Assembly: GCF_014637725.1 (NCBI RefSeq) | Contig: NZ_BMFC01000009.1 | Coordinates: 1-64,000, forward strand | Length of the DNA stretch: 64,000 nucleotides | Source of the DNA: Marivita lacus | GTDB lineage: Bacteria > Pseudomonadota > Alphaproteobacteria > Rhodobacterales > Rhodobacteraceae | Reading direction: 5' to 3' | Position numbers and translations under genes: made by a program | In this document: positions 5,398 to 11,655 of the stretch, piece after piece | Numbering within the stretch: the first letter of the stretch is position 1 | Layout of the letters: each line of letters starts with the position of its first letter | Notes under the pieces: generated by a model | Databases searched by the model: none | What the model was told of the DNA's origin: nothing | Seen by the model: only the letters and a program-made list of their open reading frames with translations

Positions 5398-5439
5398 TGA
5401 CTCGTTAAATTTTGCAAAACCAGGAGCGAGAGAGATCGT

Positions 5440-5766
5440 TCAGTTGTACTGGAACTGAAGCTCGTAGCTGCCATCCTCGAACGCGCCGAACAGGTCCGGC
5501 ACATCGGGATGTTCGACGGGTTCACCCGAGTAATCGGCGATGAGGTTCTGTTCCGAGACATAGGCGACGTAAAAGCTTTGTTCGTTCTCTGCGAGCAGAT
5601 GATAGAACGGCTGCTTTTTCGCGGGCCGACTGTCTTCGGGAATAGCCTCGTACCATTCCTCGGTGTTGTTGAATTCAGGGTCCACGTCGAAAACCACCCC
5701 CCGAAACGGGTGTCTGCGGTGGCGAACGACCTGGCCGATGTTGTATTTTGCGCGTTGTCTGATCAT
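5440..5766 (-). CDS. hspQ: Heat shock protein HspQ
   Basis: The 108-aa product matches HspQ (YccV-like, hemimethylated-DNA-binding fold). In Enterobacteria HspQ is a heat-inducible protein that modulates Lon and DnaA stability. Conserved blocks are KYNIGQVVRHRRHPFRGVVFDVDPEF near the N-terminus, QPFYHLLAENE, and the C-terminal YVSEQNL...HPDV. The internal ATG at 5766 was chosen because upstream codons do not match the family. A perfect 17-nt palindrome lies 34 nt upstream of this start and may control it. Confidence 0.92.
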   Translation of the reverse strand: MIRQRAKYNIGQVVRHRRHPFRGVVFDVDPEFNNTEEWYEAIPEDSRPAKKQPFYHLLAENEQSFYVAYVSEQNLIADYSGEPVEHPDVPDLFGAFEDGSYELQFQYN

Positions 5767-5799
5767 GAGTCCTGTCCGTTGCCATATACCTGCCTGATT

Positions 5800-5816
5800 T
5801 TGGACAAATTGTCCAA
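5800..5816 (-). promoter_or_regulatory. Palindromic operator candidate upstream of hspQ
   Basis: TTGGACAA (5800-5807) and TTGTCCAA (5809-5816) form a perfect 17-nt palindrome around one central A. It stands 34 nt upstream of the hspQ ATG, where a repressor or activator would act on the hspQ promoter. Similar GGAC...GTCC half sites occur in operators of Rrf2-type regulators; that link is only a guess. Confidence 0.5.
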
Positions 5817-5995
5817 TTGTAGCGGCGTTTTTTTGGGAAACAGTCTGTGATGCATTTCGACACAAGGTTTTTTCGTGGCATGGCAGGGACTTGCCAGCCC
5901 GAGCAATTGTGATTTCCACCAAGCCACCTTTGCGCTAGACTGCAAAAAATTCCAAAGTCGGGATAACCGGCTTCGACCAAAAGAGCGAGAGGCCC

Positions 5996-6586
5996 ATGAG
6001 CAGATTCTTTCGCGCCCTTGTGATTGTCCTGTTGGTGGCCTCTTGTGGAGGCGGCAGCGGCACATCGGCGCCCCGTAACCTCGACGATGCCTGTTCCATC
6101 CTGCAGCAGCGCCCCGGATACCTGCGGGCGTTCCGTGCGGCCGAGCGCAAATGGGGTGTTCCGGTGCATGTGCAGATGGCCTCGATGTACCAGGAAAGCA
6201 AGTTCCAGTCCGACATCCAAACCCCGTTCCGTTATACGCTGGGCGTGATCCCGATAGGGCGCCAAAGCTCGGCCTATGGTTACAGCCAGGCGCTGAACGG
6301 CACGTGGGAGGAATACCAGACCAACCAGCGCAAGTTCCGGGCGCGGCGCAACGACATCAGCGATGCCGCGGATTTCATGGGGTGGTACATGGCCGAGTCG
6401 AATCGCAGCCTTGGAATTTCACTGGCGGATGCCCGCAACCAGTACCTTGCCTATCACGAAGGCCGCACCGGGTTTTCGCGCGGCAGCTACAACAGCAAGG
6501 CCTGGCTCCTGCGCGTTGCCGACGAGGTTGCCGCCCGGTCGGTGCTGTACCAGCGGCAATTGGCAAGCTGCCGCGTCCGGGCATAG
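5996..6586 (+). CDS. Putative SLT-domain lipoprotein (lytic transglycosylase-like)
   Basis: A 196-aa predicted lipoprotein. A signal peptide ends in the lipobox LLVASC (Cys at residue 17), so the mature protein should be anchored in a membrane facing the periplasm. The mature part resembles a family 1 lytic transglycosylase domain: MYQESKF carries the probable catalytic Glu, then YGYSQALNGTW and a late YLAYHEG block. Such enzymes cleave the glycan strands of peptidoglycan. The domain is short and divergent, so the activity is likely but not certain. Confidence 0.75.
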   Translation: MSRFFRALVIVLLVASCGGGSGTSAPRNLDDACSILQQRPGYLRAFRAAERKWGVPVHVQMASMYQESKFQSDIQTPFRYTLGVIPIGRQSSAYGYSQALNGTWEEYQTNQRKFRARRNDISDAADFMGWYMAESNRSLGISLADARNQYLAYHEGRTGFSRGSYNSKAWLLRVADEVAARSVLYQRQLASCRVRA

Positions 6587-6603
6587 GTCCGGACCGGCCC
6601 CAT

Positions 6604-6621
6604 TGTTTCGCGCGCGAAACA
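6604..6621. other. 18-nt perfect palindrome in a convergent intergenic region
   Basis: The half sites TGTTTCGCG and CGCGAAACA form an uninterrupted 18-nt palindrome. It lies between two convergent genes (SLT lipoprotein and FAD protein) without a T tract. The outer six bases on each side equal those of the ParB site parS, but the spacing is 2 bp longer. Confidence 0.5.
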
Positions 6622-6675
6622 TTCGGACAGGGGCACTGACCCTTTAAGGTTTTGTTAATATTTGCGAAATTCGCG

Positions 6676-7902
6676 TCAGGGCGAAGGATAAGCGCCGCTC
6701 AGAACCTGCATTGCGCGGGACAGGATATCCTCGTCTGACAGTCCGGCAAGATCGCGTGCGGGCTGTGCGCCGTTGAAACCAACAAGGACGGGCGCGTCCA
6801 GCACAGGCGCCAGATTGAGCCACTGGTTGAACTGACCCCGTGGCAAGCCCGTCTCTGGCGTCAGGATCCAGGTGGCCCCAGCGTCCCAGAACACCTCGTC
6901 GAACTGCATGTACAGCTTGTCGAGCAGCCCATAGCCCAGCCGGTCGATCGCGATCTGCTTGGCCTCGGGCAAGGGCGGCGAGAACGCGATGCGCTGCTGT
7001 TTGAGCACACCCAGCGGGACGGTGACGATCACCGCATCGAACCGACCCAGAGATCCCGCCCCAGAGGCAAGCTGCACCGATCCGTCGTGGGCGCGAACAG
7101 ACCGCACCTCTGTGCCCAGCCGGAGATCAATGGCAGGGTCCGCCGATCCGAGAATCCGGGTATAACCACCGGGAAAGAGCCGGTCGTCGCCGTCGTAATC
7201 GCTGTCATCCTCATAGGCGGACCAGTTGATCTGGTTTTCGCTGGCGCCGTAGTCCTGTTGGATTGTCATCACGTCCTCGAACCAGTCCGGCAGATCGCGG
7301 TCCCGCAGCCGGCGGCCCCCTGCCCCGCGTGCGATGTAATCGTCGTCGGTGACCACGCTGCGCATGCCCCGGCTTGCGGCCAGTGCCACCAGCGGATTGT
7401 CCTCATCCCCGTGCAGCCAGCTCGCACCCAGATCAAGCGGCAGGCCAAGGCTGTGATCGGTCCAGATGCGTCCTCCGATTCGATCCCGCGCCTCAAAAAG
7501 GGTCACGCTGATCCCTGCTTCGGCAAGGCGGCGCGCGGCGGTCAGGCCGCTGATGCCTGCGCCGATGATGGCAACCGCTCTGGCCCCGGTTTCCGCGACC
7601 GCGTCAGCCGTGTCGAGACCGCTCTCGTAGGCGGCATGCACGGTGCTGTTGTAGGCTGGATGCGTGGCCTCGCCCGCAAAGAACAGAAGGCTGTCGACGG
7701 GTCGGCCCAGTTCTAGCACATCGGCTCGGGATGCGCCGCGCGCGATGTAGGAATAGGCACCATGGCTGAAGGGATCGCGGCTCCAGTTGGTGCGCAGATA
7801 CCCGGTCAAGGCTGGCAGGGATTGCGCATGTGCACTGTGGGGAGCGCTGGCAGCAACCGTGACGGCAGCAGCAGCGGTGGTCAGGAGATGTCGGCGATCC
7901 AT
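6676..7902 (-). CDS. Tat-exported flavin amine oxidase-like protein with circularly permuted domain order
   Basis: The 408-aa product begins with a twin-arginine-type signal (MDRRHLLTTAAAAV...AHAQ). Residues 34-95 then match the C-terminal end of flavin monoamine/polyamine oxidases: TNWSRDPFSHGAYSY, LFFAGEATHPAYNSTVH and AAYESG. Only after that, at residues 110-160, comes the dinucleotide-binding motif AIIGAGISGLTAARRLAEAG with EARDRIGGR and DLGASWLHG, which normally starts these enzymes. The protein stops at AYPSP, exactly where the missing C-terminal segment would follow. The frame is continuous, so this is not a frameshift or a pair of genes. Start at 7902 was chosen for the signal peptide. 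The lolA stop lies just upstream. Substrate unknown; a periplasmic amine is possible. Confidence 0.85.
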   Translation of the reverse strand: MDRRHLLTTAAAAVTVAASAPHSAHAQSLPALTGYLRTNWSRDPFSHGAYSYIARGASRADVLELGRPVDSLLFFAGEATHPAYNSTVHAAYESGLDTADAVAETGARAVAIIGAGISGLTAARRLAEAGISVTLFEARDRIGGRIWTDHSLGLPLDLGASWLHGDEDNPLVALAASRGMRSVVTDDDYIARGAGGRRLRDRDLPDWFEDVMTIQQDYGASENQINWSAYEDDSDYDGDDRLFPGGYTRILGSADPAIDLRLGTEVRSVRAHDGSVQLASGAGSLGRFDAVIVTVPLGVLKQQRIAFSPPLPEAKQIAIDRLGYGLLDKLYMQFDEVFWDAGATWILTPETGLPRGQFNQWLNLAPVLDAPVLVGFNGAQPARDLAGLSDEDILSRAMQVLSGAYPSP

Positions 7903-7909
7903 CGCTTCC

Positions 7910-8497
7910 CTAACGGTTCGCAGTGCGTTCGATTTCGACGTTGAACAGGCTGTTGGCCAGTTGCTTGCGCTCCAGCGCGCCCAGAACCACCGTCGTCTGC
8001 CCGCCGCTGTCATCGGTGATGACCCATTGGCGCAGCTCTACGGGATCACTGGTGAACTTGAGCTCGATGCTGCCGTATTCGGGATTTTCGGGGTCCTGCG
8101 CGGTCACCGTGGTCGCGGTGCCGTCAAAGCCATGCGCCACCACCATGTTGGCGCGGCTCAGGTCCACGTTGCGCGCAAGGATCAGCCCCAGCGGAGTGCG
8201 GTTGAGCGGATAGGTTTCGGGCTCGCCGCCCAGTTTGCGATCAAACACGAACACCCCACCATTGTTGGCCATCACCAGCGCCTGTTCCGGCGGGTTGTAT
8301 TCGAAGCGCATCTTGCCGGGGCGGCGCATGTAGAGCGTGCCGGTCGAGATCGTGCCATCGGCGTTGATCTGGGTGAAGGCGGATTCGGCACTGGTCAGCT
8401 GGTTGAGGTAGTTGGACAGCGTGTTCAGCGAAAGCTGCTGGGCTGCGGCCGGAAGGGCCGTCAGCATGAGGGCGGTCAACATGGCGATGAATCGCAT
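7910..8497 (-). CDS. lolA: LolA-like outer-membrane lipoprotein carrier protein
   Basis: A 195-aa periplasmic protein with a clear signal peptide ending ALPAAAQQ. LolA accepts lipoproteins from the LolCDE exporter and carries them to the outer membrane. The core strands are recognisable: a TGTLYMRRPGKMRFEYNPP block near residue 52 and VMANNGGVFVFDRKLGG after it. The gene is 7 nt upstream of the permuted flavoprotein on the same strand, so the two may be co-transcribed. The length fits alphaproteobacterial LolA. Confidence 0.88.
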   Translation of the reverse strand: MRFIAMLTALMLTALPAAAQQLSLNTLSNYLNQLTSAESAFTQINADGTISTGTLYMRRPGKMRFEYNPPEQALVMANNGGVFVFDRKLGGEPETYPLNRTPLGLILARNVDLSRANMVVAHGFDGTATTVTAQDPENPEYGSIELKFTSDPVELRQWVITDDSGGQTTVVLGALERKQLANSLFNVEIERTANR

Positions 8498-8591
8498 GGG
8501 GCAAGATCCTGTCTGCTCGGGTCGTCTTTGACCCTATATGGCAAGCCGCACGGTGTTATGCGATAGCAGCGGGGATTTTTGCCGATGCGGC

Positions 8592-8648
8592 GTGCCGGGC
8601 AGTCGCCCCGCCGACAGCCGCCGCGCAGGCCGGGCGACTGCCCGGCAC
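8592..8648 (-). terminator. Long inverted repeat downstream of ftsK
   Basis: A perfect 17-bp inverted repeat (8592-8608 with 8632-8648) encloses 23 nt. It starts 11 nt after the end of ftsK and could stop its transcription. No T tract follows. The right arm contains CCGGGC-GACT-GCCCGG (8630-8645), one of three copies of a dispersed 16-nt palindrome also seen at 29635 and 41909. Confidence 0.55.
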
Positions 8649-8658
8649 CCATCCGGCC

Positions 8659-11655
8659 TTATTGCTCCGGCACGAGGATCTCGCGTTTGCCGACATGGTT
8701 GGCGGAGCTGACGACGCCTTCCTCTTCCATCTGCTCGACCAGACGCGCGGCCTTGTTGTAGCCGATGGCCAGCTTGCGCTGGATATAGGAGGTGGAGCAT
8801 TTGCGGTCGCGGACCACGATGCCCACGGCCTGATCGTACAGCGCGTCTTCGCCGTCGGTGTTGCCGCCGGTGTTGAGGCCAAGCACCGCGTCGATATTGT
8901 CGGCCTTTTCGTCATCCGGTCCTTGCACGACACCCCCGACATATTCGGGCGGGCCGTATGCCTTGAGATGGGTGACGATTTCCTCGACTTCTTCATCAGA
9001 CACGAACGGGCCGTGGCAACGGATGATCTTGGAGCCGCCTGCCATGTAGAGCATGTCGCCCTGCCCCAGCAGTTGTTCGGCCCCCATTTCGCCAAGGATG
9101 GTGCGGCTGTCGATCTTCGACGTGACCTGGAAGCTGATGCGCGTGGGGAAGTTCGCCTTGATCGTGCCGGTGATGACATCCACCGACGGGCGCTGCGTGG
9201 CCATGATCAGGTGGATTCCGCTCGCACGGGCCATCTGGGCGAGGCGCTGAATGCAGGCTTCGATTTCCTTGCCCGCGACCATCATGAGGTCGGCCATCTC
9301 GTCGACGATGACGACGATATAGGGCATCTTGACCGGCTGCAGTTCCTCGGATTCGAAAATCGGTTCTCCGGTTTCATCGTCAAAGCCGGTCTGCACGGTG
9401 CGTTCGAACATTTCACCGCGCGACAGCGCGTCGGCGACGCGGCCATTGTAGCCGTCGATGTTGCGCACACCCATCTTGGACATCTTGCGGTAGCGGTCTT
9501 CCATCTCGCCCACGACCCATTTGAGGGCGACAACCGCCTTTTTCGGGTCGGTCACGACGGGCGACAGAAGGTGCGGGATGCCGTCATAGACGGAAAGTTC
9601 GAGCATCTTGGGGTCGATCATCACAAGGCGCAGATCGGCAGGCGTCAGCTTGTAGAGCAGCGACAGGATCATGGTGTTGATCGCCACGGATTTCCCGGAC
9701 CCGGTCGTTCCCGCGATCAGCAGGTGGGGCATCTTGGCGAGGTTGGCGACCACCGGATCGCCGCCGATGTCCTTGCCCAGCGCCAGCGGCAGTTTCTGCG
9801 TGCCGTCGCCGTAATCGCGGGTCGAGAGAATCTCGCGGAAGCTGACCATCTCGCGCTTTTCGTTCGGCAGTTCGATGCCGATCACGCTGCGCCCCGGCAC
9901 GGTTGAGACACGCGCGGACAGAGCGGACATGGAGCGCGCGATGTCGTCGGCCAGACCGATCACACGGGACGCCTTGAGGCCCGGCGCGGGTTCAAGTTCG
10001 TACATGGTCACGACCGGGCCGGGGCGAACCGACACGATCTCGCCCTTCACACCGTAATCGTCCAGCACCGCTTCGAGCATGCGGGCGTTCTCTTCGAGCG
10101 CCTCGTCGCTCAGGTGGTGGCGTTCGATGTTAACCGGGTCCATGAGCAGGCCGAGCGGCGGCAGGTCGTAATCCACCTGCTTTTCCTCGAATCGCAGACG
10201 CGGTTGGGCTTCTTCCTGTGCGCGCTTGGAGGGCTGGAGCGGTTTGCGTTGCGGCTGCTGGACGACCTTGCGGGCTTCGGGCACGGGGATCGATGCGGAT
10301 GTCGCGGGCGCATAGGCCTGCGCCGCATCGTCGTAATCGTCCCAATCGGTCATGTCGTCGAAAATGTTGTCCGGATCATCCTCGTAGGCCGGTGCCTGCG
10401 AAAGCGGTTGGACCTGTGGCTGAATCTGCGGCTGCGGCTGCGGCTGGTAGGTAGGGGCCCTTGGCGCGGTGACAGGCGGCTCTGCGCGCAGCGGAGCTGC
10501 GGCGCGGGCGGTGACGGGCGGTTCCGGTGGCAGGGATGCGGTCGGCTTGAAGATCAGCGGATCGGGGCCGCGGCCCCGGCCCTTCGTCAGCGGCGCGGCA
10601 AAGGCCGAAGTCAAAGCCGGGTTCTGGCGCACGCGCGACTTGATGGCATCCGCGATCTTTGCGCGCACGCGGTCATCACCGGGCAGCGAGTCGGGCAGAT
10701 CGCCATGGGGAAAGGTCTCGACCAATTCGGGTTCGGGATCGGCGCGACGCATGAGCGACGGCATCTTGGACAGGAACCCGGTTTTCTGCGGCGCGTGTAC
10801 AGGTGCGGCATAGGGATCGTCGATAAGGCTGTCTTCGTCGTGATAGGCGGGCGGCGCCTTGGGCGCGATGCGGGTCACACGCGGTTCCGCCTTCACGGCC
10901 GCCTGCGCTGCGGCCCACTCGGCGGCCTCGGCCTCTTCCTGCGCACGCAGGGCGCGGCGTTCGGCAGTCTTGGCCTGCAGGTCACGGGCCGCGATCAACG
11001 CGCCGGACGCACCCTTGCCCAAAAGCGAGAGCAGCGTGGCATAAACCATGATCACGCCAACGATCAGGAACCGCGCAAGGCGCTTCAGCTCCACCTTGGT
11101 GAAGCCCAGAACGAAAGTGCCCATGACCAGAACGACACCGCCCAGAAGCAGCATCATCAGCTTGAGCCCGAAGGTGGTGCCCAGCGGCAGGATCGTCAGG
11201 ATCGACCCCATCATCATGTCCCCGAACAGGCCGCCAAGACCAAAGCTGTGGGTCCACGCGGTGGTTTCGGGCACGCCTGCGGCATAGACGGCGGCAAGCG
11301 CCACCCAGATCGGCGCGAAGATCAGGCAGGACAGCGCGCGCTCTTCGCCCCGGTGCAGCGCCAGACGCGCGCCCCAGACGAGGAGCACCAGCGCCAGACC
11401 CCAGCTTGCCCAGCCGACGATCATGAAGAGCGGTGCGGCAATCGACGCCCCTGCCCGGCCCAACCAGTTCTGAACGGGGGCATCGGTGGCGGACAGCCAG
11501 CTTGGGTCTTGCGGCGAGTAGGAATAGATCATCGCGGCGGCCATCGCCCCCAGCGCCATGAGCACGAAGCCACCGAGCTCCTTGCCCCGCTTCTCGAGTG
11601 CAGCCTGCATGTTGCTGTCGAATAGGGGGTCACGCCCCCGCGCCTGATATGCCAT
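8659..11655 (-). CDS. ftsK: DNA translocase FtsK/SpoIIIE
   Basis: The 998-aa product is a septal DNA pump that clears and orients chromosome ends at division and activates XerCD recombination. The N-terminus has four to five membrane helices within about residues 28-210. A long Pro/Gln/Ala-rich linker follows (about 220-480). The motor domain has Walker [10 protein letters not shown] near residue 646 and Walker [13 protein letters not shown] near 778. The C-terminal gamma winged helix (about 930-998, ending KREILVPEQ) would read the KOPS orienting sequences. Start at 11655 gives a normal N-terminus. It follows the dapC-like gene by only 11 nt. Confidence 0.95.

Follow-up and report, generated by a model that had tools for sequence, protein, structure and literature searches.

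Flavin amine oxidases of the PF01593 family normally open with a GxGxxG FAD motif and close with an FAGEA segment. In the window, the 64,000-nucleotide stretch of Marivita lacus DNA analyzed here, one gene encodes a protein with these elements in swapped order, and an earlier note on this DNA had proposed that it is a circularly permuted amine oxidase. The locus raises the question of whether this order belongs to a real protein, and whether that protein is still an amine oxidase. Matches to normal amine oxidases in swapped order, permuted homologues in many genera, and a compact model with rotated elements bear the proposal out. We place at about 0.85 the probability that the circular permutation is genuine and natural, in a flavin amine oxidase fold of the LSD1/polyamine-oxidase type, and that the protein has an amine-oxidase-like function.

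Segment order within a single frame

The permuted amine oxidase gene lies on the minus strand (6676..7902), reading from 7902 to 6679 with the stop codon at 6678-6676, and was delineated from its frame, Pfam, and phmmer. Its 408 codons form a single uninterrupted frame, giving a product of 408 amino acids. The segment order had been read correctly in the earlier note; the strand had not been given. The features that follow are all on the minus strand. Residues 1–27 (7822..7902) read MDRRHLL...AHAQ and form the Tat-like signal that had been suggested there, with DRRHLL, a hydrophobic stretch, and an AHA-Q boundary; the assignment draws on the sequence, on a twin-arginine count, and on model confidence (pLDDT below 50 at 1–26). 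Residues 34–95 (7618..7803) make up the moved segment, equivalent to the part of the FAD domain that is C-terminal in normal-order proteins and carrying W40, Y50, and G77-E78-A79, as judged from alignment with LSD1 577–658, pLDDT, and purifying selection. Residues 36–95 of this segment (LRTNW...FAGEATHPAYNSTVHAAYESG) stand ahead of the GAGISG dinucleotide (FAD) motif at residues 114–119 (7546..7563), which was recognized from sequence, Pfam, and row conservation, and the same stretch (LRTNWSRDPF...FFAGEATHPAYNSTVHAAYESG) is the usual end of flavin amine oxidases. At residues 96–108 (7579..7617) the old C-terminal helix runs out and a new loop leading to strand 1 forms the junction, as indicated by a helix at 88–103 followed by a strand at 109–113 and by weaker constraint. 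The normal N-terminal FAD half and the substrate domain occupy residues 109–405 (6688..7578), which by alignment and in the model are about 40 residues short between positions 170 and 246, and AYPSP (404–408) forms the last residues of the protein. K329 (6916..6918) was aligned, by phmmer and row comparison, with the lysine of LSD1 GFGNLNKVVLCFD.

Pfam Amino_oxidase (PF01593) matched the product in three stretches with an E value of 7.5e-69 (score, 233.5 bits; cut-off, 19.8). In a phmmer comparison, LSD1 (2iw5_A) was the first match among solved structures, again with three stretches and in swapped order: residues 109–179 aligned with LSD1 chain 110–180 (i-Evalue 1.6e-10), residues 200–407 with 354–567 (2.3e-21), and residues 36–105 with 577–658 (2.8e-4). 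The reversed order in one unbroken 408-codon frame is thus seen both in the frame itself and in the LSD1 stretches, and the C-terminal-type segment does precede the FAD motif, as had been claimed. It follows from the stretch coordinates that the moved piece resumes at the position of the stop, with about 10 LSD1 residues between, in agreement with the further claim that the protein stops where the moved segment would normally follow (the query ends at LSD1 567 and the moved piece starts at 577). Each part of the fold is present only once in the protein by the same comparison. The alignment check against normal amine oxidases that the earlier note had called for gave swapped pieces with relatives as well as with LSD1: of the 20 normal-order relatives from the window's family, 19 aligned as two swapped pieces and one (L081) through its main piece alone.

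Predicted structure

Two sets of permuted sequences were assembled, A1 with 17 of 20 permuted sequences and A2 with the window sequence and 35 of the 60 permuted named-genome loci. An AlphaFold2 model of the window protein from 36 permuted sequences reached a mean pLDDT of 90.1 and a pTM of 0.87, and pLDDT fell below 50 over three or more residues only at 1–26, the signal. The moved segment (34–95) was modeled with block pLDDT values of 90–97, except for 86 at residues 81–90. The control, a model with Roseovarius litoreus L177 as first row and 19 normal-order sequences, had a pLDDT of 92.1. Elements of the window model run E32–37, E50–52, H59–66, E73–75, H88–103, then E109–113, H117–128, E132–137 and on to H390–404; those of the control run E15–19, H23–34, E38–42 and on to H333–348, then E357–360, E373–375, H382–388, E397–399, H412–427, with a short additional E390–392. 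The two predicted element lists are rotations of one another. The predicted fold is compact, residues 34–105 included, a point that the earlier note had wanted checked for 34–95, and the model shows the LSD1/PAO fold of FAD and substrate domains. Foldseek, which is bound to chain order, gave the permuted model TMq values of 0.60–0.68 to LSD2, LSD1, and polyamine oxidase, compared with 0.82–0.92 for the control against the same kinds of protein, in each case among the matches listed (50). This gap is what a permutation would be expected to produce, with a part of it due to the 26 low-confidence signal residues being counted in the length.

Conservation and constraint in both parts

Residues were compared in a common register of 48 permuted and 46 normal rows. 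G114, G116, and G119 of the FAD motif, as well as W40, G77, and E78 of the moved segment, were present in every row of both kinds (48/48 and 46/46). The FAD-binding residues E137, R141, G143, G144, and R145 occurred in all 48 permuted rows, and E137 and G143-G144-R145 also in all 46 normal rows. Y50 was found in 41/48 permuted and 41/46 normal rows. K329, which aligns with an LSD1 lysine that we take to be the catalytic Lys661, was present in 41/48 permuted and 46/46 normal rows; by alignment, the window sequence would therefore possess the active-site lysine of LSD1 and polyamine oxidases. The seven permuted rows with T, A, or R in its place are all actinobacterial (L226, L234, L236, L237, L238, L239, and L216), and six of them fall in one actinobacterial branch of the 94-row tree described below. 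In five pairs comparing the window with genus relatives, pN/pS was 0.18–0.27 for the moved segment, 0.26–0.31 for the rest of the protein, and 0.49–0.95 for the 13-codon junction (96–108), showing constraint on both parts and a looser new loop, the latter value being derived from few codons.

Distribution of the swapped order

Collinear homologues, i.e., those with the same swapped order, were found at every level searched. Among 61 genomes (its own and relatives), full-length collinear homologues occurred in 5 of 16 same-genus genomes (69–73% identity) and in one further genus (53%). Within the family, 15 of 394 genomes carried one (its own and 14 others, 38–58% identity), including a homologue in G220 that was matched over 1–351 only, at a contig end. 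The order (292 genomes) yielded 10 collinear matches, its own included, and 1 in normal order, and the class (385 genomes) yielded 3, its own included, and 1 in normal order. In the actinobacterial class of Nocardiopsis, collinear homologues reaching E 1e-60 were present in at least 20 of 345 genomes. Because the searches had score limits (E 1e-20 for the family, 1e-40 for the order and class, 1e-60 for the actinobacterial class), these counts are lower bounds. In a scan of named-genome contigs, the best 80 loci comprised 60 collinear and 20 normal-order loci; 58 of the 60 were single tblastn stretches, and in L146 and L147 the match was split into two stretches that keep this order. Truncation or a frameshift affected five of the collinear loci (L111, L135, L143, L147, and L151). 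Titles of collinear records include Marivita, Jannaschia, Tropicibacter, Roseibium, Nitratireductor, and Erythrobacter, and further Granulosicoccaceae, Okeania, Opitutaceae, Nocardiopsis, and Microbacteriaceae, many of these records being metagenome bins with taxonomy as titled. The swapped order was retained in homologues down to about 35% identity, and about 30% in actinobacteria, which goes beyond chance. No permuted copy was seen on plasmids (0 of 91 matching plasmid records covered 80% of the query in one place) or in archaea, where both Haloarcula matches were in normal order. Five metagenome bins of the cyanobacterium Okeania contain a permuted copy (L113, L116, L117, L119, and L122), and four of the five share neighbors; either transfer or mis-binning is possible.

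These results bear on the possibility that the swapped order came from faulty assembly or a rearrangement artefact, or that a broken gene had become joined to a piece of a neighboring one. The source is a draft assembly of 65 contigs, which leaves room for such an error; against it, the same order recurs in independent species and genera, nearly always in one open frame, the moved segment is under purifying selection, and each part of the fold occurs once. We give this explanation a negligible chance, and the assembly error that the earlier note had named as a potential refutation is very unlikely given independent genomes with the same order. A search of related genomes for the same order had also been proposed there, and the conservation of this order in genus, family, order, class, and actinobacteria shows that the design is that of a real protein and did not come from an error in sequencing.

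The locus within the genus

The gene is flanked upstream on the same strand by lolA (7910..8497, minus strand; Pfam LolA, 2.5e-22) and faces a convergent lytic transglycosylase-like gene (5996..6586, plus strand; Pfam SLT_4, 2.4e-73). Both lolA and the SLT gene flank the permuted gene in the window and in five other same-genus carriers. Eleven same-genus genomes without the gene provided nine lolA loci, and no normal-order copy was seen in any of them; such a copy would have spoken against the permutation as first described. The arrangement ftsK-lolA was present in 9/9 of these loci, with no match to the gene within the 1.5 kb read, and the SLT gene was in view in 4/9. As the flanks carry no trace of the gene, it was probably gained or lost whole here rather than rearranged in place. 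A conserved operon was considered and rejected, the neighborhood being kept within the genus only.

A shortened substrate domain and the number of origins

The spacing between P170 and G246 is 74–81 residues in 29 of the 48 permuted rows, which form the window's branch, 101–122 in the other 19, and 113–129 in normal rows. In the window, the region concerned (7183-7392, minus strand, residues 171–240) has about 40 substrate-domain residues fewer than normal-order relatives, and permuted rows outside the window's branch retain most or all of them. Helices 112–126, 134–140, and 142–146 of the control have, by eye, no counterpart in the window model. We infer that the substrate domain became smaller in the window's branch, through a loss that followed the permutation.

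Whether the permutation itself arose once was approached with two trees, of 96 and 94 rows, the latter with more actinobacteria. Both left out L111, L135, L143, L147, and L151, as well as L093, which is partial, and L181, a duplicate. Near copies (6 rows) were also removed before the 96-row tree, and 42 further names and L242 were taken out for speed before the 94-row tree. A single origin, before the loss of the approximately 40 residues in the window's branch, is the probable course of events. AU tests did not reject one permuted clade with 96 rows (p 0.347) or with 94 rows (p 0.521, the one-clade tree being 0.59 lnL better than the free tree), and the new N-terminus and the junction lie at the same positions in the actinobacterial and proteobacterial groups. 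An alternative of lower likelihood is that two or three separate permutation events hit one and the same breakpoint, in branches of actinobacteria and proteobacteria. Consistent with this alternative, permuted rows fall in two (96-row) or three (94-row) branches among normal ones, and neither free tree can be explained by fewer than two order changes. In the 96-row tree, two such changes are required by branches with strong support, and a single change suffices for 0% of 200 bootstrap trees; in the 94-row tree, one change is required by such branches, and a single change suffices for 4% of bootstrap trees. Forcing one clade on the 96 rows costs 8.5 lnL units. The AU results and the identical sites in both groups weigh against several origins and toward a single one. 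Tandem duplication and trimming, the route suggested in the earlier note, is one candidate for how the permutation came about; among the loci read, no tandem intermediate was found. Two candidates for a duplicated intermediate, L166 and L235, were rejected: their apparent second C-terminal segment or copy was a spurious extension through stop codons, and both are normal genes. No direct repeats of 20 bases or more were found in window 5400-9000.

Function, export, and gene context

The window protein is most likely an amine oxidase akin to LSD1 and polyamine oxidases that is exported by the Tat route: amine oxidation is suggested by the fold, the lysine, and the aromatic residues, and Tat export by the signal. 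In the proposed arrangement, what used to be the C-terminal portion of the FAD domain (a strand, the aromatic-cage residues, the FAGEA motif, and the last helix) would have moved to the front, and a short loop would lead from it into the strand that once opened the Rossmann part. The chain would end in the former linker that tied the last helix of the substrate domain to the FAD domain. The Tat system transports folded proteins. The protein would fold, take up FAD, and leave by this route, and, by analogy with unpermuted relatives, may act on an amine, perhaps one of the polyamines, oxidizing it to an imine and releasing H2O2. The window sequence has the twin arginine and hydrophobic stretch of a putative Tat-type signal; a crude rule detects this pair before the core in 54/62 permuted frames and also in 17/22 frames of normal-order bacterial relatives. 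The permuted copies of Nocardiopsis L150 and L155 are without a visible signal peptide, which indicates that export is not tied to the permutation.

A flavoprotein of other chemistry (e.g., a desaturase or a non-catalytic FAD protein) is an improbable alternative. The best NCBIfam matches were to HpnE, desaturase, and protoporphyrinogen oxidase, in the FAD-motif region and far below cut-off, and the lysine is lost in some actinobacterial members; on the other side, both parts of the protein resemble LSD1, LSD2, and polyamine oxidase in sequence and predicted fold, and the window's branch keeps the lysine and the aromatic residues. Amine oxidation remains the preferred assignment. Gene context at some other loci fits it. 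In L067 and L109, the permuted gene is accompanied by a pair of glutamine-synthetase-like genes, one gene like class-I amidotransferases, and genes for amino-acid ABC transporters; in L106, it is accompanied by transporter genes and a single glutamine-synthetase-like gene. Gamma-glutamylputrescine synthetase is what the L067 synthetases resemble, although the three such neighbors tested were below the NCBIfam cut-off for that enzyme, and the L067 transporter binding protein resembles lysine, arginine, and ornithine binders, below its own cut-off. The L067-type context is consistent with amine catabolism. Such synthetases accompany the gene at only 5/62 called loci, some of them duplicate retrievals of one gene, so that any choice of substrate is guesswork; the window's own neighbors (lolA, ftsK, and SLT) point to no pathway.

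Relation to known systems and significance

Over both parts, the protein is like LSD1/KDM1A, LSD2/KDM1B, maize polyamine oxidase, and spermine oxidase (all PF01593) in sequence and predicted fold. It shares with PF01593 members the FAD motif, the active-site lysine, the Trp/Tyr pair known as the aromatic cage, and the FAGEA motif, and is unlike them in having its two parts swapped. The SWIRM domain, a mark of LSD1 histone demethylases proper, did not figure among the 19 Pfam families that matched with E values of 1 or less, and 408 residues would leave no room for the LSD1 tower insert. Normal-order bacterial FAD amine oxidases (Roseovarius litoreus L177; Chloroflexota L156, L157, and L163) are 31–40% identical over the main part; they differ in placing the FAD motif first and the FAGEA segment last, and in having about 40 substrate-domain residues more than the window's branch. 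The FMN-bind1 fold differs from the amine oxidase fold. Natural circular permutation in a bacterial flavoprotein is described for FMN-bind1 multi-flavinylated proteins of extracytosolic electron transfer, which are distinguished by FMN-bind1 domains and covalent flavin (PMC11334425).

A profile of the permuted proteins matched 104 PDB sequences at E 1e-10; among the matches listed (60 of 104), none has its best stretch running over the permutation junction, as all best stretches start at profile position 104 or later. No description of a circularly permuted amine oxidase appeared among the matches listed from open-licence PMC literature. The permuted amine oxidase is therefore apparently without prior description in the open-licence literature, within an otherwise known family.

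LSD1 and the monoamine and polyamine oxidases are among the well-studied flavoenzymes. Annotation tools bound to chain order match proteins of the present kind in pieces only. The permuted proteins offer a ready scaffold for studies of folding, FAD insertion, and Tat quality control, and for enzyme engineering. Tentatively, the same LSD1/PAO breakpoint may have been permuted repeatedly in bacteria, with branches that then changed the substrate domain or lost the catalytic lysine; if so, the flavin amine oxidase fold would be a natural hot spot for circular permutation. Widespread natural permutation shows that a two-domain fold of this kind can be reordered even by a cut within its FAD domain.
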